Virus record (IMG/VR): IMGVR_UViG_3300046535_000883
Span: 1-39,778 of that record
Strand: one strand, 5' to 3'
Length of the DNA: 39,778 nucleotides
From: a virus
Position 1 is the stretch's first letter. The number at the start of each line of letters is the position of its first letter. Shown here in pieces: positions 3,422 through 39,778 of the stretch. The position numbers and the translations under genes are program-made. The notes beneath the pieces are model-generated. The model searched no databases. It saw only the letters and a program-made list of their open reading frames with translations, and was not told where the DNA came from.

Positions 3422-5182
3422 ATGTCGACAGTGCAATGTAATTTCATCAAATCGCTCGATGGCCTGGTGAACATCGATGTCAAGACGATCGCCACGGGCG
3501 GCGCTGGCGTCATTACGTTCCCCTCGAACGCGAAAACATTTCTGCGCGGGGATAACACTTTCACGACCACGCTCTCGCTCACCGGATCGGAGGCGCCGCA
3601 CACGACCCAGGTTGCGAACTCGATGGACGTGCAGCGGTACATTTCCTCGGGCGACTCCGCGACCAATCGGGGGTGGACGTATCGCGTGAGCGCGGGGTTC
3701 GGCTTCTCGTTCTTCACGGGCGACGACGCGGGCCTCTCGGTCAATCCGATCTGGACGGCGAAGCGCACGGGCACGACGCCCACGGTGCTCGCGGTCATGC
3801 CGTTCTCGGGTCGCGTCACGATCGGCAACAACGGCGGCGCGTATCCGACGGACGATGGCGTGAACGCGCTCCAGGTCACGGGCACGATGAGCGCCACGTC
3901 GGGGCTCAACATGCCGGCGACCGGGCGCCAGATCGTCGCGCCCAATATCACCTACGATCTGTATGGCGCCGTGGTCGCGGCCTCGTACTACGTGAACGGC
4001 ACTTACAACGTCGCCGGCGCCGGCCAACAGAATGAGCTCATCAGCTTGCGGCCGTCCTCGGTCACGCTGTCGGGCGTGGGCGCCACGGCGTCGATGCTCA
4101 CCTTCGCCAACCAGGTTGTCTCCTCGATCGCGGGCACGACCGGCTACGGCATTATCGGCAGCGTCATCAATTCCGGCGCCGGCAAATCCACGGCGATCTA
4201 CGGCCGCGCAGTCGGCAGCGGCGCGCACAGCGGGATCCTGATCGGCGGCAATTTCAGCGTGAACACCGTCGCCGGCACGGACACGATCGCGACCTCGTGC
4301 ATCTACGCCTCATGGACCGGCGTTACCTCGTGCCACTTCGGGCTGCAGCTGACCGGCGAAGCGGTTGGCGACGCCGTGGATTACGCGATCTATGTCAACC
4401 AATCCGCGAAGGTCATCGGCTCGCACATCCTGCTCCAGCGCGGAGCGGCACCATGCAACACGTCCGCGAACTTCATGCAGTGCGACGACGTTACGGCGAG
4501 CGCGACGTTCTTCAAGATCACGTCTATCGGCTCGATCGTGTTCGGCGGCACGGCGCAACGGATCCAGGGCGACTTTTCTAATGGCACGATCGGCAATCGC
4601 CTGGCGTTCCAGACCACGACCTTGAACGGATCCACGATCGTGCCTTTCATCACGAACGGCACCGGCGTGGCCTCCGGCTTCCAGCTGCACGATTCGAGCG
4701 ACGCGGCAAACGCGGGGCGCATTGCCTACGCGGCGACGACGACCGGGCACTCGATCAACGTGACATCGATCGGCACCGGCGTGCTGCGCAGCTTGCAGAT
4801 CCAGATGAACACCGTCCCCGGAATCATCCTGCAGTCGACGGGGCGCGTGCTGCTCGGCAACAACCCAACGGACGACGCAGTGAACGGCGTCCAGGTGAGC
4901 AACGCGGATCTCTCGATCAATACGCTCGGGCGCGGGCTGCGCATCAAGCAGGGCGCGAACGCGAAGCAGGGGCGCGCGGTCCTGGTAGCGGGCACGGTCA
5001 CGGTTGCGAATACGAGCGTCGGCGCTAACAGCGACATCCTCATCACGTCGCAGATCGACGGCGGCGCGCCTGGCTTCCTGCGGATCTCGGCGCGCGTGAA
5101 TGGGACGAGCTTCACGATCACGAGCTCCAGCGGCACGGACACAAGCACCGTCGGATGGATGATGCTCGAACCGGCGCCGTGA
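3422..5182 (+). CDS. Probable tail fibre/spike-like structural protein
   Basis: 586 residues, low in charge and rich in Thr, Ser, Gly, Ala and Asn. Motifs typical of phage fibre proteins are present: TFLRGDNTFTTTLSL near residue 39, and two related segments (RVTIGNNGGAYPTDDGVNALQV and RVLLGNNPTDDAVNGVQV) suggesting internal repeats near residues 135 and 478. The C-terminal part (about residues 515-586) is beta-rich and could be a tip or knob. An AGAGGGG ribosome site precedes the ATG. Its place among the fibre genes supports host-surface binding. There is no recognisable enzyme domain, so fibre is preferred over depolymerase spike, but that is not certain. Confidence 0.65.
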   Translation: MSTVQCNFIKSLDGLVNIDVKTIATGGAGVITFPSNAKTFLRGDNTFTTTLSLTGSEAPHTTQVANSMDVQRYISSGDSATNRGWTYRVSAGFGFSFFTGDDAGLSVNPIWTAKRTGTTPTVLAVMPFSGRVTIGNNGGAYPTDDGVNALQVTGTMSATSGLNMPATGRQIVAPNITYDLYGAVVAASYYVNGTYNVAGAGQQNELISLRPSSVTLSGVGATASMLTFANQVVSSIAGTTGYGIIGSVINSGAGKSTAIYGRAVGSGAHSGILIGGNFSVNTVAGTDTIATSCIYASWTGVTSCHFGLQLTGEAVGDAVDYAIYVNQSAKVIGSHILLQRGAAPCNTSANFMQCDDVTASATFFKITSIGSIVFGGTAQRIQGDFSNGTIGNRLAFQTTTLNGSTIVPFITNGTGVASGFQLHDSSDAANAGRIAYAATTTGHSINVTSIGTGVLRSLQIQMNTVPGIILQSTGRVLLGNNPTDDAVNGVQVSNADLSINTLGRGLRIKQGANAKQGRAVLVAGTVTVANTSVGANSDILITSQIDGGAPGFLRISARVNGTSFTITSSSGTDTSTVGWMMLEPAP

Positions 5183-5186
5183 TCGA

Positions 5187-6491
5187 GTGGCGAATCAGTT
5201 TAAAACCGGGCTGAACCCAGGGCTCACCGCTGTAGATCAGCGGCGAGCTCGCCGGCGCATTGGGATCCTGGACGACGATACGACCGTCACATCGGGCGGG
5301 GGATCCGGCGCGCCGATCGACGCGGCCTATCTCCTGGTTGGCGGCGCCGACGGGCGCCTGTCCAATGCGCGGTTCTTGGGCGTCATCAATCCACCGCTGC
5401 AGCTGGTCGACGGCGGGCCAGGCGCGGCCCTGGTCATCAACATTACGGACTTCGCCGCGTCGGGCGGGAGTCATGCGCGCGGCACCGTGCCGGATCCTGG
5501 CGCCGTCGCGGGCTCGACGCGTTTCCTGCGCGAGGATGCAACCTGGGCAGTGCCAGGCGGCGGCAGTGGCACCGTCACCAACATCGCAACCACGCTGCCG
5601 ATCACCGGCGGCCCGATCACGACGACGGGCACGATCGGCGTCAACACAATGGTTGCGAGCGGCGGCGCGCACGCGAGCGGCGTTGTGCCGGATCCTGGTG
5701 CTGTTGCGGGCACGTCTAAATTCCTGCGCGAGGATGCAACCTGGGCGGCACCGCCGGTATCCGGCACGCTGCAGAGCCAGGAATTCACCGCCTCGGGCAC
5801 GTTCAACGTACCGCCAGGCGTCACCGGCGTATGGGTCACGCTGGTGGGTGCTGGCGGCGGCGGTTCCACCACGATCGCGGCGGCGACCGGCGGCGGCGGC
5901 GGCGGATCCGGCGAGAGCATTGTCAACATGCCGGTTGTTGTCGTTGCATCCGGCACGGTCACGGTCACGATCGGCGCGAAAGGTACGGGCGGCGCCGCGG
6001 GCCAGGCAAGCGCCCAGCCAGGCGCCAACGGCGGCGATACGTCCTTTGGCTCGCAGATCATTGCGCGCGGCGGGCTCGGCGCAGCTGCGAGCGCGACGAG
6101 CGGCGCGGGCGGCGGCGCGGGCGGTTCAGCTGCAAAAACGTCGGGCACCGTTGGCACGATCGGAATCGCAGAATCCGTTACCGGGTTCGGCGGCTCGTCG
6201 GGCGGCGGCGGCGGGGCAACGACTGGATCCAACGGCGCGACGGGCGGCCCTGCCGGCGCCTACGCCGGCGCTGCTGGCGGCTCCACTGCGGCAGTGCAAG
6301 CGGGAGGGGGTGGCGGCGCGTCCTCCGTCTACGGCGCGGGCGGCGTCGGCGGCGCCGGCGGCGCGATCGGCGTCAATGCTGCCACGACAGCCTACGGCGC
6401 CGGCGGCGGCGGCGGCGGCGGCAAAGCGACGACCACGATCGGCGGCGGCAACGGCGCCGACGGCTATTGCCTGGTGGTGTGGGTCGCGTAG
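5187..6491 (+). CDS. Glycine-rich tail adhesin, long form
   Basis: 434 residues from a GTG start, 4 bases after the previous stop. Two copies of a fibre repeat (DPGAVAG, then KFLREDATW) occur near residues 104-122 and 170-188. In the DNA these carry a 26-base identical direct repeat (5523-5548 and 5721-5746). From about residue 197 the protein becomes a glycine-rich domain: an EFTASGTFNVPPGV lead-in, then many GGGG runs, ending in YCLVVWVA. Such domains pack as polyglycine helices in phage adhesins such as the T2-type gp38 tip. The C-terminal half is a paralogue of the next gene. A receptor-binding role is likely by family and position. Confidence 0.7.
   Translation: MANQFKTGLNPGLTAVDQRRARRRIGILDDDTTVTSGGGSGAPIDAAYLLVGGADGRLSNARFLGVINPPLQLVDGGPGAALVINITDFAASGGSHARGTVPDPGAVAGSTRFLREDATWAVPGGGSGTVTNIATTLPITGGPITTTGTIGVNTMVASGGAHASGVVPDPGAVAGTSKFLREDATWAAPPVSGTLQSQEFTASGTFNVPPGVTGVWVTLVGAGGGGSTTIAAATGGGGGGSGESIVNMPVVVVASGTVTVTIGAKGTGGAAGQASAQPGANGGDTSFGSQIIARGGLGAAASATSGAGGGAGGSAAKTSGTVGTIGIAESVTGFGGSSGGGGGATTGSNGATGGPAGAYAGAAGGSTAAVQAGGGGGASSVYGAGGVGGAGGAIGVNAATTAYGAGGGGGGGKATTTIGGGNGADGYCLVVWVA
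5523..5746 (+). repeat. 26-base direct repeat in adhesin gene
   Basis: Copies at 5523-5548 and 5721-5746 encode the repeated FLREDATW fibre motif. They could support recombination that changes the number of modules. Confidence 0.75.
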
Positions 6492-7232
6492 ATGGGGGGC
6501 AAAAGCCAGGCGCAGGAATTCACCGCAACCGGCGCCTTCACGTTCAACGTGCCGGCGGGTGTGTCTGTCGTTTTTGTCACGATGATCGCCGGCGGCGGCG
6601 GCGGCGGCGGCCAAGGCTCCGCCACGCCTGGCGCGGGTGGTGCGGGCTCAGGCGAACACTGCGAACGAGTGCCCTACCCCGTCACGCCTGGCGGCACCGT
6701 CTCGGGCTCCATTGGCACCGGCGGCGTGGGCGGAACGAACGCCAACGGGACGGACGGCGGCGCGACCACGTTCGGCACCTTGACGTGCGCGGGTGGCATC
6801 CACGGCACCGGCACGGCGAGCTCGGGGCCTGGCGCCGGCGGCGGCGTGGGCGGCGGGGCGGGTGGTAATCCTGGCGCCATTGGCAGCAAGGTAGGCCGCG
6901 GGCTATTCGGCGGCTCGGGTGGCGGCACGGGCGGGCCGACTGGCGCGGTAGGCAAGGCCGGCGGCGGATCTCAAAGCTACCCTGGCGGGGCGGGCGGCAG
7001 CACGGATCTGAATTGGGGCGGCGGCGGCGGCGGCGGCGCATCCCCCTGGGGCTCGGGCGGCCGTGGTGGCAACACGGCGCCAGTGCCTCATTTCGAGAAC
7101 GGCGTGAGCGCCGTGCCTACCGCCTACGGCGCCGGCGGCGGCGGGGGATCTGGACGGGGCACCGGCGGCACGACAACGACTGGCGGCGACGGCGCCCCAG
7201 GCTACTGCCTGGTCGAGTGGATGGCGCCCTAG
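6492..7232 (+). CDS. Glycine-rich tail adhesin, short paralogue
   Basis: 246 residues. The ATG directly follows the TAG of the previous gene with no spacer. The protein is almost entirely the glycine-rich domain found at the C-terminus of its neighbour: lead-in QEFTATGAFTFNVPAGV, then GGGGGGG runs, ending YCLVEWMAP. It lacks the N-terminal FLREDATW repeats. The pair looks like a tandem duplication of an adhesin tip. The stop codon overlaps the stop of the convergent leftward gene at CTAG (7229-7232). No good ribosome site is visible, so translation is probably coupled to the upstream gene. Confidence 0.65.
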   Translation: MGGKSQAQEFTATGAFTFNVPAGVSVVFVTMIAGGGGGGGQGSATPGAGGAGSGEHCERVPYPVTPGGTVSGSIGTGGVGGTNANGTDGGATTFGTLTCAGGIHGTGTASSGPGAGGGVGGGAGGNPGAIGSKVGRGLFGGSGGGTGGPTGAVGKAGGGSQSYPGGAGGSTDLNWGGGGGGGASPWGSGGRGGNTAPVPHFENGVSAVPTAYGAGGGGGSGRGTGGTTTTGGDGAPGYCLVEWMAP

Positions 7233-7554: not shown

Positions 7555-8030
7555 CGGCGAGCTCCGTCGCCCAGGAGCACCAGGCGAAACGACGCCTGGA
7601 TCTGCCCGTCGGCGCGCGGCGCTGTGCGAAAAACCTCGAGCCCGAACACGTCGCCCTCAATGGGCATTTCGACGCCGGCGTGCGCCTTCCAGAACGACTT
7701 AGGCCAGGAGATCACCAGGGGCGTGAACCGCTCTGGATCTTCGAGCATGGCGCCTAACGTGGGCGCGTCGCTGTTGAGCCTGACCACTTCCTCCGGTACC
7801 GGATACGCGACGGGTTGCTTATCCGGTACAGCGGGGGCGGCAGCCCTGCGCATCGCGCCATCGACCCAGACCCACTCCGCAGGCGGCTCCGCGCTCGGCG
7901 CTGCGGGTGCAGCGGGGGCGGCAGCCGGCCCTTTGAAGTAGGGGCACGCACCAGGCCAGGCCGCGCCGCAGCAGATCGTCGGCCCTGGGTGCGTCCACAC
8001 CGGGCCCGTGCATCCGGCCGGCGCGCTCAC
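7551..8030 (-). CDS. Hypothetical protein downstream of recT
   Basis: 159 residues from GTG at 8030, overlapping the recT stop by 4 bases (GTGA). The N-terminus is Cys/Pro/Gly-rich (CTGPVWTHPGPTICCGAAWPGACPYFKG), which might bind metal. An Ala/Pro linker follows (about residues 35-75), then a compact C-terminal part with VISWPKSFWKAHAGVEMPIEGDVFGL. No family recognised. Tight coupling to the annealase suggests it is made with the recombination proteins, but that is only context. Confidence 0.65.
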   Translation of the reverse strand: MSAPAGCTGPVWTHPGPTICCGAAWPGACPYFKGPAAAPAAPAAPSAEPPAEWVWVDGAMRRAAAPAVPDKQPVAYPVPEEVVRLNSDAPTLGAMLEDPERFTPLVISWPKSFWKAHAGVEMPIEGDVFGLEVFRTAPRADGQIQASFRLVLLGDGARR

Positions 8031-9046
8031 TTCTTCGCTCCCGCTTCCAGCTGCTTGCGCTTCGCCCTGGCTTCCACGTCGAGCTCGGCGCGCATGGCCT
8101 CAACCGGCAGGGACCGGATCATGTCGGCCGCCTGGTCGAGCTCGTCCGTGGTCTTTGCCTTCCCGATCGCGGCGGCGATCGTCGCGTAGCCTGGCGCGCC
8201 CGTTCCGCCGTCCGCACCCTGTACCTGGGTAGCTGCCGGGGGGTCGATCGTCGATCCTGGCTCGATCTGAGCGGCCGGTTTCGATGTTTGGGCCTCCGCC
8301 GGCGCCGGTTTGGCGGTTTCCGTCGCTTGCACGCCCTGGCCGCCTCCGGCCTTCGCGGCAGCCTCTGCTGAGATCTCGCGGTTCAGATCCGCAACGCCGT
8401 CGGGCGCGACCGTGTACGACGATCCCTGGATCACGCGCTCGCCCTCGTCCTCGTCGAAAATCCCCGTGAACCCGAACGCCATGCGCGCGCACTGCATCAT
8501 CGCTTTGTGGCGCAGCATGCGCGCCGGGTGTGACGTCCAGGGCGCCGTCGGGCGCCGGCACTCGGCCAGGTACTCGGTGACGATCGTCGGATGGTTCCGA
8601 TCCTTGCGGAACATCGTGCAAGTCACGGCGACCACCTTCGCGTCGGGCCCGTCGCCGGCGAATTGCGTCGCGAACGTCATCCCGTCGAAAGCCTTGTGAT
8701 CGTTGATGATCGAGCTCCAGCCGTCGACGCCGACGATCGGCACAATGCCGCCCTTGTCGGGGAACGCGTAGATCTCCCTGGTGAACGGGTTGAGCTTGTA
8801 CTGGTTGGCGACGACCAGGAGCGCCATCATCTGCTCGTCCGTGACCGGATCCTTTCCGTCCTGCTGGCGAAACGCCGTCGCTTTCAACGTCGTCAGCAGC
8901 TTGCGCGGATCCACGGAATAGCGCGCCGCGAATTGCTCCACCAGGCTCACGCGTTGCGCGTGCGCCGCCGGCACCTGGGGGACCTGGCCCGACTGCCCAT
9001 CGTGTCCGACGAGCTCACCCTGCACGACTTTTGTTGCCTCGTTCAT
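8027..9046 (-). CDS. recT: RecT/Bet-family single-strand annealing protein
   Basis: 339 residues. It pairs complementary single strands after exonuclease resection, for recombination-dependent repair and replication. Family signature: MALLVVANQYKLNPFTREIY (about residues 77-96), then FPDKGGIVPIVGVDGW and a SIINDHKAFDG core. The core ends near residue 215 with FDEDEGERVI. The last third is an Ala/Pro-rich tail, often the exonuclease- or SSB-contacting part. The start chosen is the ATG at 9046 with GAGGAG just before it; a longer open frame to 9538 lies inside the exonuclease gene and is ignored. It follows the exonuclease stop by 11 bases, the usual exonuclease-annealase pair. Confidence 0.93.
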   Translation of the reverse strand: MNEATKVVQGELVGHDGQSGQVPQVPAAHAQRVSLVEQFAARYSVDPRKLLTTLKATAFRQQDGKDPVTDEQMMALLVVANQYKLNPFTREIYAFPDKGGIVPIVGVDGWSSIINDHKAFDGMTFATQFAGDGPDAKVVAVTCTMFRKDRNHPTIVTEYLAECRRPTAPWTSHPARMLRHKAMMQCARMAFGFTGIFDEDEGERVIQGSSYTVAPDGVADLNREISAEAAAKAGGGQGVQATETAKPAPAEAQTSKPAAQIEPGSTIDPPAATQVQGADGGTGAPGYATIAAAIGKAKTTDELDQAADMIRSLPVEAMRAELDVEARAKRKQLEAGAKK

Positions 9047-9057
9047 GTTGTTGCTCC

Positions 9058-9939
9058 TCACTCGTTGAATTTCAGCGCGTACCGTGGGAACGGCAGCACG
9101 TCGATCGTATCCCCGTAGCCGATCCATTGCCCTGACTCGCGCGCTTTCGCGTACCGCTCCAGCGCGAGATCCAGGCGGCCGCTTGCATAGCGCACGGCCT
9201 CCGGCGGCAGGGTGTAGCACTTCACTGCATGCGGCTCCTCCGACTCGACCGCAATGAACACAAAAAACCGTGGCGTTTCGTTGAGCACCGCCTCGGCGCC
9301 GGCGAAGTAGTGCGCGTTCTGCACGTGATAGAGGAACGTCGCGCAGTCCTTCGCGAATTTCTCCGCGCTCGCGTCCTGGCACGTTTTGAGATCCGCCAGG
9401 CCGCCCAGGTTGCGAATGTCCCACCGCACTTTGCAGGGCACTTTGTACTTGCCATCGATCCAAAACAGCGACTCCTCGACGTTCGCGCCGGCGAGGATCT
9501 TCGCGGCCGCGCGGTTGCGGCGCACTGCATCCGCGCACCGCAACGCGCGCCGGAAGTCAGCGGCCGGCAGCACGATCCGGCCCGTTGCAGCTGCAGCGAA
9601 TTCGGCGCGCTCCGCTTTGCCGTCGTTGCTATTGCCGTGGAATTTCCACTCCGGCGCTGCGCACGCAATCGTGAGGAGTGTGTCGGGCTCCAGCACGGCC
9701 GCGTGGACGACGGTGCCAAACTGCATGGCGGCCGTCGGCGCGTTCTGCGTGGTGCGCGCCAGGAGGTAATGCTCGGGCGAGCGCAGGATCTTCTTTGCGC
9801 CGCTGGAGCTCATGGCCTCGATCGCGTGGTAATTGACCGCGGGCATGGTCGAAAAAAAACCCGGCTCGAAAGCCGGGGGCCGCAGGGCGGCGATGCGCGT
9901 CGCTTCGCGCTCCTCCTCCTCCGAGAACATATCGCTCAC
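9058..9939 (-). CDS. RecE/exonuclease VIII-like PD-(D/E)XK exonuclease
   Basis: 293 residues from a GTG overlapping the previous stop (GTGA). The fold signatures run in order: VNYHAIEAMSSSGAKKIL (35-52), GTVVHAAVLEPD (75-86, with H79), EESLFW (155-160), KVRWD with D174, then LADLKT with D183 and K185 (metal-binding D-DxK core), and YHVQNAHY (Q207-Y211). These match the RecE-type exonucleases that make 3' single strands for RecT, encoded directly downstream. Unusually, residues 22-30 are encoded by a perfect hairpin plus eight T on the coding strand (see the terminator at 9852-9877). An ATG at 9846 lies beyond that hairpin but has no ribosome site. Confidence 0.88.
   Translation of the reverse strand: MSDMFSEEEEREATRIAALRPPAFEPGFFSTMPAVNYHAIEAMSSSGAKKILRSPEHYLLARTTQNAPTAAMQFGTVVHAAVLEPDTLLTIACAAPEWKFHGNSNDGKAERAEFAAAATGRIVLPAADFRRALRCADAVRRNRAAAKILAGANVEESLFWIDGKYKVPCKVRWDIRNLGGLADLKTCQDASAEKFAKDCATFLYHVQNAHYFAGAEAVLNETPRFFVFIAVESEEPHAVKCYTLPPEAVRYASGRLDLALERYAKARESGQWIGYGDTIDVLPFPRYALKFNE
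9852..9877 (-). terminator. Intrinsic terminator inside the exonuclease gene
   Basis: Read on the minus strand: CCCGGCT, TTCG loop, AGCCGGG, then eight T. The 7-bp GC-rich stem with a UUCG loop and long U-run is textbook Rho-independent form. It lies about 20 codons into the exonuclease reading frame and points along its transcription. It could stop the leftward transcript before the recombination genes unless ribosomes or an antiterminator prevent folding. Confidence 0.75.
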
Positions 9940-11272: not shown

Positions 11273-11515
11273 TTACCCGCGGAGCTCGGCCTCGTCGGCT
11301 TCGAGCTCGCGAGCGATCTGCTCCTTCGATTTACGTCCGGGTGACTTCGTGGTGAACCCGCCCCGATCGGCGCGCTCGTGCGTCGGCGCGTTCTCCGGCG
11401 CCACGGTCGCGCTGATCTGGTCGAGGAACTTGTGCGCCTGGTCTGGCGTCGCGACGCGTGCGGACGCGATCACGCGCCCGAATGCGTCGTACTTGGCAAC
11501 CTTGAACGAGCTCAT
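11273..11515 (-). CDS. Small hypothetical protein coupled to the transglycosylase-like gene
   Basis: 80 residues. The ATG overlaps the stop of the transglycosylase-like gene (ATGA). The start looks like a small beta-alpha fold (FKVAKYDAFGRVIASARVATPDQAHKFLDQI). The charged tail (RGGFTTKSPGRKSKEQIARE) contains a basic patch that might touch nucleic acid. Not recognised. The coupling hints at a shared role with the upstream protein, without further support. Confidence 0.65.
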   Translation of the reverse strand: MSSFKVAKYDAFGRVIASARVATPDQAHKFLDQISATVAPENAPTHERADRGGFTTKSPGRKSKEQIARELEADEAELRG

Positions 11516-12285
11516 GCCGCCTCCGCGAACGAGAATTGAACCGGCGCCGCGCCGATCAAACGGTGCAACGCTTGCGCGCGGCTCACGCCACGGTCAGGCT
11601 TCCAGATCGAGCGCAACCGATTCGCGTCGGCGCTGACCGGGCCATCGTAGCCGGCGGCCTCGATCACAGCAAGGCGCGGCGCAACCGCTTTCGCGCTTGC
11701 GGCGCCGAGAATGTGCAACGAGAAAATGCAATCACCGCGCTCCGCCAAGAGCTCGGCAAACTGCTCCGCGCTCACGGCCTCCGCCTTGCTCGGGATCCCA
11801 ACGTCAAGCATATCGGAGCCAAGGATCTCAGCGGCCACGTCGTAGAGCTCGACGAGTGAGAGCTCGCCGGCCTGGAGCGGCACGATCGCGCGAGCGGAGT
11901 GGAAGCGCGCGGCGAACGCGCGCCAGAGCTCGATCGTGGCAACCTGGTTGCCCACTACGTCGGGCATCACGAAATGCAAGCGATCGGCGGCGTAGCCGTC
12001 CGGATCCGCCTGGCTGACGGCGCACGCGATCGCGTCGTACTTGTCGAACACGGCCGCGAAATCGATCGCCTTGCGCTCGTCGCCGCGCATGGCTGCGCGG
12101 AAGTGACCGAACGCGCCGGAGTCGACGAACACGCTGGCCGTCGAGCTCGCCATCGCAACGGCAAGCTGCGCGATAGCGTTGGCGCTCATTTCCTGCACGT
12201 CGATGCCGATCGAATGATTTGCTGCGAGCGCCGGCGCGAAATCAGCGCGGCGGCTCATGCCACTGGAAAACACTTGATAGTCCAT
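11512..12285 (-). CDS. tRNA-guanine transglycosylase-like protein, possible DpdA-type DNA base exchanger
   Basis: 257 residues, first gene of the leftward operon, with GGGAG before the ATG. Motifs follow the order of the TGT (queuine/archaeosine transglycosylase) barrel: VFVDSGAFG (D55, in the place of the TGT DSGG aspartate), HFVMPDVVGNQVAT (D109), IVPLQAGE (Q138), HILGAAS (191-197) and GPVSADANR (D220, about where the nucleophile lies). The Cys3His zinc site of bacterial TGT is absent. Phage TGT relatives of the DpdA group insert 7-deazaguanines into DNA. No preQ0 synthesis genes (folE, queD, queE, queC) are present here, so host preQ0 would be needed. Superfamily assignment is fairly likely; the DNA substrate is inference. 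Confidence 0.6.
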   Translation of the reverse strand: MDYQVFSSGMSRRADFAPALAANHSIGIDVQEMSANAIAQLAVAMASSTASVFVDSGAFGHFRAAMRGDERKAIDFAAVFDKYDAIACAVSQADPDGYAADRLHFVMPDVVGNQVATIELWRAFAARFHSARAIVPLQAGELSLVELYDVAAEILGSDMLDVGIPSKAEAVSAEQFAELLAERGDCIFSLHILGAASAKAVAPRLAVIEAAGYDGPVSADANRLRSIWKPDRGVSRAQALHRLIGAAPVQFSFAEAA

Positions 12286-12322
12286 CTGGATCTCCCTGGT
12301 TTGCGCGAGGTGTTGCCCCTAT

Positions 12323-12350
12323 AGGATAGCAAAGATTTTGGGCATTGCAA
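12323..12350 (-). promoter_or_regulatory. Leftward promoter of the early operon
   Basis: On the minus strand: TTGCAA (12350-12345), a 16-base spacer, then TATCCT (12328-12323) preceded by TG one base upstream (extended -10). The predicted start near 12316 gives a leader of about 31 bases with a GGGAG site before the ATG at 12285. The -35 is shared with the rightward promoter. Confidence 0.6.
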
Positions 12351-12360
12351 AGTTTTTGGG
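12329..12360 (+). promoter_or_regulatory. Two direct-repeat operators
   Basis: GCAAAGATTTTGGG (12329-12342) and GCAAAGTTTTTGGG (12347-12360) differ at one position and are offset by 18 bases. The first lies in the spacer of the leftward promoter. The second covers part of the shared -35 and the spacer of the rightward promoter. They are the natural candidates for binding by the Cro-like protein encoded next door. Confidence 0.6.
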
Positions 12361-12372
12361 ATGCCGTAAAAT
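12345..12372 (+). promoter_or_regulatory. Rightward promoter of the Cro-like gene, probably leaderless
   Basis: TTGCAA (12345-12350), a 16-base spacer, then TAAAAT (12367-12372). The expected start is 12379-12380, on or next to the A of the ATG at 12380. No ribosome site precedes that ATG, which fits a leaderless mRNA such as the one lambda makes for its repressor. Confidence 0.6.
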
Positions 12373-12379
12373 TCAGCCC

Positions 12380-12562
12380 ATGAAATATCACGATCTAGAA
12401 CGACACTTTGGCCGCTCGCCAAGCAAGATTGCGCGCGGCCTGGGGATGTCCCCGCAACGCGTCTCGTACTGGCGCGCGAACGGGATCCCGCTACCTGTCC
12501 AGGCGCTCATTCAGCTGCGCACCAACGGCGCATTGCGCGCGGATCGGCACGTGCTGCTGTGA
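12380..12562 (+). CDS. Cro-like helix-turn-helix repressor
   Basis: 60 residues. A single HTH domain fills the protein: RSPSKIARGLGMSPQRVSYWRANGIPL (about 10-36), with the usual pattern of a Cro/YdaS-type regulator, followed by VQALIQLRTNGALRAD. It should bind the direct repeats in the 94-base region before it, controlling both divergent promoters. The ATG at 12380 is chosen because the predicted transcript begins there; a longer frame from 12338 would run through the promoter. The stop overlaps the next gene (GTGA). No second repressor or integrase is present. Confidence 0.8.
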   Translation: MKYHDLERHFGRSPSKIARGLGMSPQRVSYWRANGIPLPVQALIQLRTNGALRADRHVLL

Positions 12563-12990
12563 GCAAGGGCTTGCGACTGTCGGGCGACATCGAGCTCGCG
12601 CGGATCCAGGCGCGGCTGCGTGGTGCAAAGCCACGAGCTCAACACCCTGGTCCGATCGCCGGCGGCAAGGCGCCGACGCTCAAGCCTGACCGCTATCACC
12701 TGGCCGCGCTGTTCGCGCAGGAGCGATTGCCCAAGCTCTACCGCGAGTATCAATTCTCGTCGCGCGGCTGGCGCTTCGATTACGCGGATCCACCGCGCAA
12801 GATCGCGATCGAGATCGAGGGCGGGATCTTCACGCAGGGCGCGCACGGCAGCATCGAGGGCGCGCTCCGCGACATAGAAAAATACAATGCGGCGACGCTG
12901 CTCGGGTGGCGGATCCTGCGCTATCTTCCCGATCACGCAACGCGCGCAGTCGACGATTTTCGGCAGCTGCTCATGGAGGAACAACGATGA
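12559..12990 (+). CDS. Vsr/DUF559-like PD-(D/E)XK endonuclease
   Basis: 143 residues from GTG overlapping the repressor stop (GTGA). The core, about residues 58-125, reads YREYQFSSRGWRFDYADP, KIAIEIEGGIF, DIEKYNAATLLGWRILRYLPD. Likely metal ligands are D74 and E85/E87, with K108 close by. This pattern is common in small phage nucleases related to very-short-patch repair enzymes and DUF559 proteins. It may act in replication or recombination (nicking, junction processing) or on host DNA. The nuclease fold is well supported; the substrate is unknown. Confidence 0.75.
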   Translation: MSKGLRLSGDIELARIQARLRGAKPRAQHPGPIAGGKAPTLKPDRYHLAALFAQERLPKLYREYQFSSRGWRFDYADPPRKIAIEIEGGIFTQGAHGSIEGALRDIEKYNAATLLGWRILRYLPDHATRAVDDFRQLLMEEQR

Positions 12991-21015: not shown

Positions 21016-21203
21016 GCTCGGGCATTGACGGCGAGAGACTGGTTCGCCTAGAGTGCGCGAAGCTCGTGGGACCGATTGCAAGAAGCGAAGGCATTGAACA
21101 AGCTCTAATCGCCGCCGCTAGAATCGCTCAATACGTAGAGACTGGACTCGCTGTAGAAAGCACCGGAGCGGATACGAAACCGGCGCCCCGCACAAAGGGC
21201 TGA
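21012..21203 (+). CDS. Small hypothetical protein with unusual codon use
   Basis: 63 residues from GTG overlapping the scaffold stop (GTGA). Helical middle: IARSEGIEQALIAAARIAQYVETGLAVES. It uses codons that are rare in neighbouring genes (CTA, AGA, GTA, several AAG/AGC contexts), so it may be recently acquired or weakly expressed. It has a good overlap start but no recognised family, so its reality is moderately sure. Confidence 0.5.
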   Translation: MSSGIDGERLVRLECAKLVGPIARSEGIEQALIAAARIAQYVETGLAVESTGADTKPAPRTKG

Positions 21204-36400: not shown

Positions 36401-38582
36401 GCTGCAGGAGAAAACGGCCGCGCAGAAAAAGGCGGCAGAGCTCAAGGCGAAAGCGGATGCAGAGCGCGACGCGTTCTCGCTCACCGGATCCGATCGGCCG
36501 GCCGACAAGGCGGGCCAGAGCTCGCTGTTCGAGCCCGCGACTGAGTACGGCAAAGAAAACCCCCTGTGGCGCTCCGCCCTGGAGGATGCCGTCGCCGGGA
36601 TCCGGACCACGAGCTCGCCGGCGGCGCAGTGGAAAGCGACGATCGCGAAGATCCCCGGCGTCAAGCCGGCGGAGATCGAGGCGACCGGGCTCAACGACTG
36701 GCTGGATATGCAACAGGGCAACGTCACGCGCGACCAGGTGCTCCAGTTCGTGCGCGACAACGGCGTGAAAGTCTCGGAGAAAATGCTCGGCTCGCTCTCC
36801 GATCTCGAACAGTCGCGCGCAGAGGCTCATCTATCTTCCGTGCGTGCTCAACGCAACGAGCTCCGCAATGAAATTTGGGGCTCACCGGACGAGCTCGCGC
36901 ACGTCGGGATTCTTCACGAGATCTCGGATCCGGCAACGCGCGCCAACGTCGGCGGCTGGGCGCACGACGCTACCTCGCCCACGGTCACGCCTGGCGTGAA
37001 GCGCGTCGCGCTGCGCAAGCTGGAGGCGCTGCCGTTGACGCCGGAGCAATTGGCGAAGGTTCTCAAGTGGGGCGAGCTCGCGCACGCGTCTGACGCCGCA
37101 GAGCGCGCGACGCTCGGGCCGGAGGCCGGATCCCCCAAGTACTCGAATTGGCAGCTGCCAGGCGGCCAGAATTACAAGGAGCTCCTGCTCACGCTGCCGT
37201 CCGCTACCGATCGGATCACGGACGCGGAGGCGGAGCGCGCCGGCATGGGCCCGCACGCCGGCTACGAGACGGATGCGTTCGTGAGCTCGCACTTCAAGGG
37301 CGTCTCTAACATCCTCGCGCACGTGCGGTTTAACGAGCGCACGGACGCCGACGGCAAGCGCGTGCTATTCCTGGAGGAGATCCAAAGCGACTGGGCGCAG
37401 AAGGGGCGCGCCGCCGGATTCAGGGGACCAGGCGAGTCTGTAACGCCGTTCGGATACCCCAACGAGTTCCGGATCACGCAGAGCGAGCACCAATATCACG
37501 TCGACAGCCCGAACGGCGATTATCACGTCGACATTGGCAAGGGCACCGTCGAGAGCGAAGCGGCCGCGCGTGAGTACGCGAATCGCTACTTTAAACAGCT
37601 GTGGGAGGCACGCGTGCGCGCGGGCCGCGACAAGGTTGCGCCGGCGCCGTTCGTCACGAAAACGGAGGCGTGGGTCGCGCTCGCGTTGAAGCGGATGATT
37701 CGCTACGCCGCAGATAACGGGTTCGATCGAGTCGCCTGGACGAACGGCGACCAACAGGCGGCCCGCTACTCTCTGGAGAAGCATCTGGAGGAGATCCAAA
37801 CCTCGCGCCGCGCGGACGGCTTGTATGAGGTTCATGCGTCCGACAAGCACGGTAGATCCGTGTTCGGCAGTGCCGGCTACGTTAACGTGAACGCGCAAAA
37901 TCTGGAGCACTACGTCGGCAAGGAAATGGCGCAGAAGATCATCGACGAAACGCCGCCCGAAGGTAAGGGCGCAAAGAAATGGCGCGGCCTGGATCTCAAA
38001 GTAGGCGGCTCGGGCATGCGCGAGTTCTACGACAAGATCCTCCCGAACATCGCCGGCGACGTGCTCAAGAAGATCGGCGGCGGCAAGGTCGACGAGAGCG
38101 GCATGGTGCTCGATACGAAGCGCGGCACGGGCCAGGAGTATGTGGGCCCGACGATGAACGAGGGCGAGCTCGACGCCATGATCGCGGACCATTCGATCAA
38201 CGCCACGATGCGCGCGCAGCTGCAGGATGTGCGGGCGCGCCTGGTCATGGGTGCGACGTTCCACCAGGCGATCAACGAGGAGGGCAGCATTGCGCTCGCG
38301 GAAATGATCGGCGGCCGCATGAAAGGCGTCGGCGCGCCGGAGACGAGGCAATCCGGTTTCGACATCACGCCGAAGATGGTCGAGCGCGCGCAACAGGGCA
38401 TGGCGCTGTTTGAACCGCAGCCGGGATATGGCGATTACCCCGGAGCTCCTGGTCGCGAGATCTCGTCGGAGCAATACCTCAAGGCCGCGGACCAACGCGA
38501 GGCGGAGGCAACCAAGAGCGCCGAGAGCGCGACCGGCACCGCAATCGCGTGCGCCCTGGCGAACGGAGTCGGCTATGCGTGA
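33483..38582 (+). CDS. Giant ejected-type polyvalent protein with JAMM (RadC-like) domain
   Basis: 1699 residues; ATG overlaps the previous stop (ATGA). Order: a Gly/Ala-rich hydrophobic region (about 1-260) that could enter membranes; acidic linkers; a JAB/MPN domain of RadC type (about 640-785) with IAHNHPSNTDRFSPQDA giving H725, H727, S735 and D738; a following domain to about 935; a coiled coil (about 958-1000). Then a segment with KPAEIEATGLNDWLDMQQGN common to large phage proteins, and a conserved domain (about 1220-1545) with FLEEIQSDWAQKGR (from about 1296), ALALKRMIRYAADNGFDRVAW and LKVGGSGMREFYDKILP. Such multidomain proteins are thought to enter the cell with the DNA and counter host defence. 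Virion location is inferred. Confidence 0.78.
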   Translation: MSFFDLDPNVARSQYVDAGAAHATADDLAPGLSAGLLNAIPTGIARPAYAAQGAISRAMIPNGQEFDKVFGTSTAAWLQGSADAADRTLTEMGKDSARNGWAANTLSGLASVITGATLGGAAGARFGAAGEVAGAMGAVGVTSGYETTLQAQNAGIPDEIARSMGIVSGAANAAGLVLPMSVPGAGYALNTAFGAGSMGYFGAINRASMHETLNRAGRPDLAAQYQVFDPGAMLADAVMGAGFGAWARFHAGAPPAPPPKNLEPGVLPRDAVDAATAMNAAVHRAESTLPGTPMDSATIKAHNDDLDLATRQLIEGEPVDLPTRGHGDDGGQFEKHDPEFEASRHVPDEEVNAALQELADQNDQELAAHLDLPPERDNAPAAAAGPLSPAMLRGEIGWAQRGGQLQRSTDFTSSDLDASGQPLIGAGEVIGRTKWVEISPFWPMRPDKRLTEAQAHKAFDKLEAGEKLRPIEQRFVDYAARELERRQAPTEADLEREAIQGEPELTPEERAAAGVDGLTPEARQEFDQWAAYHDTWKDLTDDEIDALSRDAAAPVRGENEGSGSGGTQEAPGRLAEPRPGEGEGESAQAVAQPSVAKKGGYVDDLFGTPLPRPERAAGVTPEPKPEPAREISPGVFGATTRLTTVARIRSGFERVTDAASAAHVFAYLRKLPQENVGVLLLDKDGRPIAVVRHSLGQRAEATVEASSLLGSALKDPRVASIWIAHNHPSNTDRFSPQDAALHNNLVGALEGSRVKYGGFLAIAGRRYVGLGNRRISVNEGGVAGKLEFHDALDAIGDENQTIPARARHFEIPVQERIFSRNGTLGPPIKTSQDTIDLARQISNGEDGVMLINHRLAPVAWLPMPLEALQNIRGPVADHLLNGLESSNAAAMVIVTRKPIDEIDVGTLANLGNFGRAMGTQLLDAVSIGKPGSSAMAARKMPANASRNFREGEGDLLSTYTNDEVRQREEAALALQEKTAAQKKAAELKAKADAERDAFSLTGSDRPADKAGQSSLFEPATEYGKENPLWRSALEDAVAGIRTTSSPAAQWKATIAKIPGVKPAEIEATGLNDWLDMQQGNVTRDQVLQFVRDNGVKVSEKMLGSLSDLEQSRAEAHLSSVRAQRNELRNEIWGSPDELAHVGILHEISDPATRANVGGWAHDATSPTVTPGVKRVALRKLEALPLTPEQLAKVLKWGELAHASDAAERATLGPEAGSPKYSNWQLPGGQNYKELLLTLPSATDRITDAEAERAGMGPHAGYETDAFVSSHFKGVSNILAHVRFNERTDADGKRVLFLEEIQSDWAQKGRAAGFRGPGESVTPFGYPNEFRITQSEHQYHVDSPNGDYHVDIGKGTVESEAAAREYANRYFKQLWEARVRAGRDKVAPAPFVTKTEAWVALALKRMIRYAADNGFDRVAWTNGDQQAARYSLEKHLEEIQTSRRADGLYEVHASDKHGRSVFGSAGYVNVNAQNLEHYVGKEMAQKIIDETPPEGKGAKKWRGLDLKVGGSGMREFYDKILPNIAGDVLKKIGGGKVDESGMVLDTKRGTGQEYVGPTMNEGELDAMIADHSINATMRAQLQDVRARLVMGATFHQAINEEGSIALAEMIGGRMKGVGAPETRQSGFDITPKMVERAQQGMALFEPQPGYGDYPGAPGREISSEQYLKAADQREAEATKSAESATGTAIACALANGVGYA

Positions 38583-39778
38583 GCAATGTATCCGCGCTGT
38601 CTCCGCCAACCTGGGCCGCGAGCTCACCCAGGACGAAGCGAACGGAATCGAAAACCGGATCCGCGACGCGTTGCGGCAGCTGAAAAGCAAGCCCCAGGCG
38701 TTCGCGCAGATGGACGCGCCAACCAGGCTGCAGGAGGCCGCCAGGATCGCGGCCGCGAACATCAAGCAAGACGCGTTTGAGGCGAAGCGGCGCGCGCAGA
38801 TCACCGTCGGGATCCACGATCGGATCGGTGAGTATTACCAGAAGGCTGTCGCCGCCGGCATGGATCCGCAGGAGGCGCTGCACCGCATGCTCAACACGGA
38901 GGCCGACGGCCGCTCGACCGTGCAATCGCAGGAATCGAAAACCGAAGGGATCAACCGCGACTACGCGCGGCGCCTGGTCACGCTGCTCGAACAGGCGCAC
39001 CCGCGCATGCTCGGTCTGTTCGCCAACCGCGAGGGCGCGCAGCTGGTAACGCGCGAGCTCTACGGCGAGGACACGGGGAGCTCGGTCGCGAAGGCGGCCG
39101 CGAAAGAATGGGGCACCGTGATCGATCAGATGGTCGCGCACTTTCGAGATCTCGGCGGCACCCTGCACCGCCTGGACGATTGGCGTTTTCCGCAGCACCA
39201 CGACAGCGCCCGCGTCTTTGGCGACGGATCCGTGAGCTCGCGCGAGTCATGGGTCGACTCGGTTCTCCCCAAGCTGAACCGCGAGCGGTATATCGCGGAC
39301 AGCGGCCGGATCATGGTCGACACGGAAGTGCGCGACGTGCTGCGCGACGTGTGGGACACGATCGCGACCAACGGCGCGAACAAGATCGACCCTGGTGCGC
39401 CGGCCGTCGGCGGCCGCATGGTCGCGAACCGCTACAGCGACCATCGTTTTCTCCACTTCAAGGATGCGAGCTCCTGGCTCGACTACCAGGGGGATTACGG
39501 CAGCAAAGATCTGTGGGCTGTGATGACGGGCCACGTGAACACGCTCTCGCGCAACATTGCCGCGATGGATACCTGGGGCCCAAATCCGGATGCGATGTTC
39601 GGCTATTGGAACGCGAAGGCCGCGCTCGAAGCGCGGCACAGCAAGACCAACGTCCACGCGGTCCAGGAAAAGAACGCGGACGCGTTCCGCTACGCGATGG
39701 GCTACAGCGCCGGCGTCTCGAACGCGATGATCGCCGGCGGTTTCGCAGCTGCTCGCAACGTCGCGAGCGCAGCACTCC
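38575..39778 (+). CDS. Large internal virion/ejection-type protein, N-terminal part (continues at position 1)
   Basis: Starts at ATG 38575, overlapping the giant gene's stop by 8 bases, and stays open to the end of the window (401 codons). It continues in frame through the terminal overlap to the stop at 1455, about 843 residues in all. The N-terminal part is helical (RRAQITVGIHDRIGEYYQKAVAAGM). The motifs RLDDWRFPQHHD, YSDHRFLHFKDASSWLDYQ and MTGHVNTLSRNIAAMDTWGPNP recur in large phage and prophage proteins beside internal virion genes. No catalytic site is known to me. The likely role is in DNA ejection or as a co-injected factor. Confidence 0.75.
   Translation, partial: MREQCIRAVSANLGRELTQDEANGIENRIRDALRQLKSKPQAFAQMDAPTRLQEAARIAAANIKQDAFEAKRRAQITVGIHDRIGEYYQKAVAAGMDPQEALHRMLNTEADGRSTVQSQESKTEGINRDYARRLVTLLEQAHPRMLGLFANREGAQLVTRELYGEDTGSSVAKAAAKEWGTVIDQMVAHFRDLGGTLHRLDDWRFPQHHDSARVFGDGSVSSRESWVDSVLPKLNRERYIADSGRIMVDTEVRDVLRDVWDTIATNGANKIDPGAPAVGGRMVANRYSDHRFLHFKDASSWLDYQGDYGSKDLWAVMTGHVNTLSRNIAAMDTWGPNPDAMFGYWNAKAALEARHSKTNVHAVQEKNADAFRYAMGYSAGVSNAMIAGGFAAARNVASAAL
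39652..39778. repeat. Terminal overlap, right copy
   Basis: Identical to 1-127. The offset of 39651 is a multiple of three, so the split gene stays in frame when the ends are joined. Confidence 0.9.

Follow-up and report, generated by a model that had tools for sequence, protein, structure and literature searches.

In the early layout of phage lambda the recombination genes lie leftward and the cro operon rightward. In the immunity regions of lambda and P22 and in N15 immB, a cro gene of the P22/N15 type stands first in the rightward early operon, and the divergent promoters, which are spaced apart, carry three operators. In the published bidirectional sigma-70 promoters of the Grainger group, defined for E. 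coli and Salmonella, the two directions share a -10 element and the start sites lie 7-25 bp apart (PMC10268837); the shared core element is bound in either orientation, with mutual exclusion between the two directions (PMC12825309, PMC10268837). Measurements at PacrA/acrR established that one auto-repressor, AcrR, controls a shared promoter in both directions (PMC12825309). The pLS20 conjugation promoters Pc and Pr, which are under the control of Rco, overlap, with the -10 of one promoter placed over the -35 of its partner, and are characterised by unequal strengths and DNA looping (PMC4207663). Finally, at Acinetobacter umuDAb/ddrR both divergent -35s overlap one repressor site and both directions are repressed (PMC7273328). 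A limited literature search returned related cases only; none of the papers described a palindromic -35 common to two promoters.

Here we analyse virus record IMGVR_UViG_3300046535_000883 (39,778 bases, 65.6% G+C), referred to at its full length as the window. The contig carries a 127-bp repeat at both ends, and the phage genome is therefore probably complete. The intergenic gap at 12286-12379, which divides a leftward gene of 257 aa from a rightward gene of 60 aa, is the most A+T-rich part of the genome (36% G+C in 50 bp). Re-reading of the sequence showed that the coordinates given for the hexamers, spacers and repeats in a preliminary description of this gap are all correct; they are collected in Table 1 together with the neighbouring genes.

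Table 1. Sequence features of the divergent promoter region and the genes around it
Feature	Position	Strand	Remarks
RecT-type annealing protein and DUF3799 PDDEXK exonuclease (recombination genes)	8027..9939	-	leftward
First leftward gene, 257 aa, predicted TIM barrel	11512..12285	-	structure model
Shine-Dalgarno AGGGAGA of leftward gene	12291..12297	-	sequence
Leftward extended -10 TGC-TATCCT	12323..12328 (hexamer)	-	16-bp spacer, or 17 with -35 TTTGCA
Left repeat GCAAAGATTTTGGG	12329..12342	+	putative Cro site, within leftward spacer
Dyad CAAAGATTTTG of left repeat	12330-12340		centre near -44 of rightward promoter
Shared hexamer TTGCAA, self-complementary	12345..12350	both directions	-35 of first- and second-ranked promoter-like sites
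Right repeat GCAAAGTTTTTGGG	12347..12360	+	putative Cro site over shared -35 and rightward spacer
Dyad CAAAGTTTTTG of right repeat	12348-12358
Longer dyad CATnnCAAAnnnTTTGnnATG of right repeat	12343-12363
Rightward -10 TAAAAT	12367..12372	+	16-bp spacer from TTGCAA
Cro-like repressor, 60 aa	12380..12562	+	matches to Pfam P22_Cro, phrog_409 and N15 Cro structure
Small nuclease-like protein, next after cro	12559..12990	+	phrog_503; nuclease-like by eye

To rank the promoters, we applied a sigma-70 matrix to all -35/-10 pairings of the window, both strands included. Of 397,500 pairings, the rightward TTGCAA-16-TAAAAT came first (11.2 bits) and the leftward TTGCAA-16-extended TATCCT second (11.0 bits), under a matrix of approximate E. 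coli frequencies, from which the sigma preferences of the host may differ. A separate consensus scan picked up the rightward promoter only; TTGCAA agrees with the consensus -35 at 4/6 positions, as does TATCCT with the consensus -10. The hexamer TTGCAA occurs twice in the window, the other copy being at 21076. Because A+T richness inflates the genome-wide rank, we also shuffled the gap itself with dinucleotides preserved: an equally good rightward site arose in 27 of 2000 shuffles and an equally good leftward one in 21 of 2000, while both together, with or without a common -35, arose in none of the 2000. The ranks and the shuffles support the original proposal of two divergent promoters with a common palindromic -35, both of them strong by score. 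Its further detail, a single -35 with 16-base spacers both ways, needs qualification: the 16 bp are there on each side, but on the leftward side the alternative -35 TTTGCA with a 17-bp spacer scores 10.8 bits against 11.0, so that 'one identical hexamer' is true only to within one base.

By sequence, then, the same bases form a promoter element in both directions. The leftward start is predicted near 12316-12320 and the rightward one at about 12379-12380, at the cro ATG, which places the two some 60 bp apart; since the rightward -10 ends seven bases ahead of the ATG, the cro mRNA is predicted to be leaderless. As in the Grainger-group promoters, a shared core element would be bound in either orientation with mutual exclusion; unlike in those promoters, the shared element is the -35 and not the -10, and the predicted distance between starts lies outside the published 7-25 bp. 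The next-best promoter-like sites of the window, TTGACG-18-TAGAGT and TTGAAC-19-TAGAAT, fall within 21025-21124, about 200-300 bp upstream of the major capsid gene, and could represent a late promoter; the second TTGCAA copy falls within the same stretch.

On the rightward side, the 60-aa protein matches PF14549 (P22_Cro) over residues 8-57 with 39.9 bits (cut-off 30.2, E 3.6e-10); with a score above the curated cut-off, what was initially called Cro-like is a true member of the P22-type Cro family. It also matches the transcriptional regulator phrog_409 (E 6e-14) and, weakly, the N15 Cro structure 2hin (E 0.0013). Its gene stands first on the rightward side, as cro does in lambda, P22 and N15, and the nuclease-like gene behind it has relatives in 23 viral contigs. 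With recombination genes leftward and cro rightward, the window resembles the lambda division, but without CI.

The window differs from lambda, P22 and N15 in that no repressor gene was found and the first leftward gene is enzyme-like. A family profile search with the 257-aa protein returned no match, including none to a helix-turn-helix family. Structure modelling (mean pLDDT 82) predicts a TIM barrel, which weakly resembles sugar epimerases and, in comparison with viral proteins, queuine tRNA-ribosyltransferases and phage queuine/guanine transglycosylases. This fold rules out the leftward gene as a repressor, and the place divergent to cro, where a lambda-type region has a second, antagonistic repressor, is thus taken by a TIM barrel. 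The protein has one relative, at 4986-5720 of contig L002 (33-35% identity), where it forms one domain within a protein of 588 aa; in both places it may act in DNA or tRNA base modification. Searches of the genome for a tyrosine integrase, a resolvase and an S24 repressor came back empty, and HTH_3 gave a weak match at cro itself and none elsewhere. The empty integrase and resolvase searches agree with the earlier remark that the genome has no integrase; a structurally close cousin, G001, has one.

The two 14-base direct repeats are near-identical as described, agreeing at 13/14 positions, and lie 18 bp apart; a 14-mer repeat was seen in 0/1000 gap shuffles. The dyad CAAANNNTTTG that they contain occurs twice in the whole window, where 0.22 are expected, both times within the gap; two such dyads appeared in 0/5000 gap shuffles. 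The repeats are plausible candidate Cro operators. The half-sites of their dyads are only 7 bp apart, closer together than helix-turn-helix dimers usually require (roughly 10 bp), and the true operator register is therefore uncertain. The preliminary description seated both operators in the spacers and assigned one to each direction. The left repeat does lie inside the leftward spacer, but the right one extends into the shared -35, covering four of its bases (its dyad covers three). Cro at the right repeat should therefore block both promoters, and the idea of an operator for each direction is not supported. As in the lambda/P22 and N15 regions, the operators would lie on divergent promoters; the window has one shared -35 and two candidate sites in place of spaced promoters and three operators. 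In repressor placement the window resembles umuDAb/ddrR, where the -35 elements of both directions likewise overlap the repressor site, although there the repressor is of another family, the two -35 sequences are distinct and the context is a chromosomal damage response. The pLS20 promoters similarly overlap and obey one regulator, but their -10-on-(-35) overlap, unequal strengths and DNA looping set them apart from the window.

We consider it reasonably probable that this region exerts early control in a phage in which neither a CI-like repressor nor an integrase was found, and, with similar confidence, that it does so by mutual exclusion of polymerases combined with one auto-repressor that damps both early operons. 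The host sigma-70 polymerase would bind the palindromic TTGCAA facing either way. Leftward transcription would yield an mRNA with a normal leader that encodes the 257-aa protein and the recombination genes; the rightward message, encoding the Cro-like protein and whatever follows it, would be leaderless. As both directions need the same six bases, two polymerases would exclude each other and only one direction could be used at a time. Rising Cro would then fill the two repeats: on the left site, in the leftward spacer, it would block the leftward promoter, and on the right site, covering part of the shared -35, it would block both directions. With a single repressor, Cro production would be self-limiting, and the outcome we infer is a shared, self-limiting early burst with negative feedback on both operons rather than two stable states. 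AcrR at PacrA/acrR provides a precedent for a lone regulator acting both ways. If this reading is right, a single repressor and a single shared -35 can suffice for early phage control.

Originally, the same elements were taken for a bistable lytic switch, in which polymerase exclusion and Cro at two operators give two heritable states. A possible route to it would have Cro on the left site alone shut the leftward promoter and free or even activate the rightward one, so that low Cro levels feed back positively and high levels repress; in favour of this, the left site is upstream of the rightward -35, and its distance (centre about -44) is one from which activators can act. In a simple equilibrium model that included exclusion between polymerases and the binding of Cro dimers, run over random parameter sets, bistability reached its maximum, about 1% of sets, when the left site was stronger and Cro activated 10-fold; it fell to 0 to 0.05% when the right site was as strong or stronger. 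It is the right site that has the longer dyad and lies over the shared -35, so that shutting off both directions is the likelier effect, and only one regulator was found. A bistable switch is therefore very improbable in our judgement; the claim is weak and should be dropped, barring experimental support.

Two further readings question parts of the arrangement. Only the rightward cro promoter may be real; the leftward genes would then be transcribed from elsewhere, through a different promoter or read-through, and the palindrome would be incidental to an operator sequence GCAAAG. In favour of this, the leftward -10 is no better than TATCCT, and TTGCAA is partly built from the GCAAAG of the repeat. 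Against this, the leftward site is still the second best of the genome and has an extended -10, and a Shine-Dalgarno sequence and an ATG follow at normal distance downstream of it, which makes this reading, to us, quite unlikely. A single central Cro dimer, bound to the inner half-sites TTTG-N7-CAAA (12337-12351, centre 12344) beside the shared -35, would have the normal one-turn spacing of 11 bp between half-sites, and the window holds just one other TTTG-N7-CAAA. Such a dimer would, however, leave the outward extension of the repeat without a reason, and the longer single dyad belongs to the right repeat; we regard it as unlikely. The reading we retain is that of a shared, self-damping early control.

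Among named phages, DNA and protein searches found nothing for the gap region or the leftward protein, and a search with Cro found one distant match, Acinetobacter phage BUCTT20. Among viral contigs, Cro alone had no close relative and the exact repeat-plus-hexamer pattern no match. Five Cro proteins, when aligned, proved too divergent for scanning bacterial genomes, and a two-sequence alignment found no match in them. The nearest Cro proteins are those of contigs L127 (47% identical) and L013 (36%), and no CI gene was found beside cro in either. In L127 an ERF recombination operon runs leftward, and cro with replication genes rightward; leftward transcription would start from TTGACG-17-TACGAT and rightward transcription from TTTACA-18-TACGGT, two promoters whose -35s are separated by about 60 bp. 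In L013 cro is followed by the same nuclease-like gene as in the window; a leftward TTGACA-16-TATACT and a weaker rightward TTGCGT-16-TATAGT have -35s about 48 bp apart, and three ACGG-N4-CCGT-like dyads lie on or beside the promoters. At 1430-1533 of L013 the near-consensus leftward promoter ends seven bases ahead of an ATG, so that leaderless messages are predicted both ways.

The G001 phage (L007/L008) has a capsid protein 96% identical to that of the window and an unrelated early region. It is a conventional temperate phage: it has an integrase, its leftward gene is CI-like, and its rightward gene, with the promoter TTGACT-17-TAGACT, is Cro-like. Its segments 5133-6959 and 38004-39068, set against the window, look like a lifestyle module exchange between near relatives. 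The distance from the -10 of the best or second-best cro promoter to the ATG is 7 bases in G001 and 6 in both L127 and L013 (= L149); Acinetobacter-type Cro loci have about 30-33. The preliminary description had looked to relatives with an unchanged gene order for conservation of the hexamer and of both spacer lengths. Among these distant relatives (Cro 36-47% identical), candidate dyads on the promoters and a predicted leaderless cro recur in L127 and L013, and in L127 the recombination genes also leave leftward; the hexamer common to both promoters does not recur, the -35s being kept apart in L127, L013 and G001. Candidate dyads on divergent promoters are thus a repeated trait of distant Cro loci, whereas the shared -35 was seen in the window alone; the searches yielded no close relative of the gap.

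Beyond phages, we scanned bacterial genomes for ATTATA-N16/17-TTGCAA-N16/17-TATAAT. At least 118 stretches matched, 80 of which were analysed (L183-L262); as the pattern requires consensus -10s and thereby selects the loci, these numbers speak to recurrence, not to unbiased frequency. Spacers were 17/17 in 56 of the 80, 17/16 in 12, 16/17 in 7 and 16/16 in 5, where 20 of the 17/17 class are expected by chance with equal classes and about 14 if the promoters are real on one side only. With homologous loci collapsed, 17/17 spacers remain in 40/62 of the analysed matches (p about 6e-11 against 25%). At least eight of the loci, from Clostridia and related bacteria, keep the arrangement at one common gene pair although their spacers average only 44% identity. 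These bacterial loci use the same palindromic TTGCAA for two divergent promoters as the window, but mostly with 17-bp spacers, between chromosomal genes and with no Cro seen. Judging by the pattern matches, the shared-TTGCAA divergent promoter is a recurring bacterial design; the window holds the phage form of it, in which the spacers are 16 bp long and a Cro gene is present. More speculatively, and with doubts that outweigh our confidence, the shared palindromic -35 could be a widespread, largely unnamed promoter class, by which the phage merged its two early promoters and placed the whole early programme under one Cro-type repressor acting at a single -35. If so, surveys restricted to starts 7-25 bp apart would miss such divergent promoters. 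By eye, the gene pair at the eight loci appears to be tRNA nucleotidyltransferase-like and diacylglycerol kinase-like.
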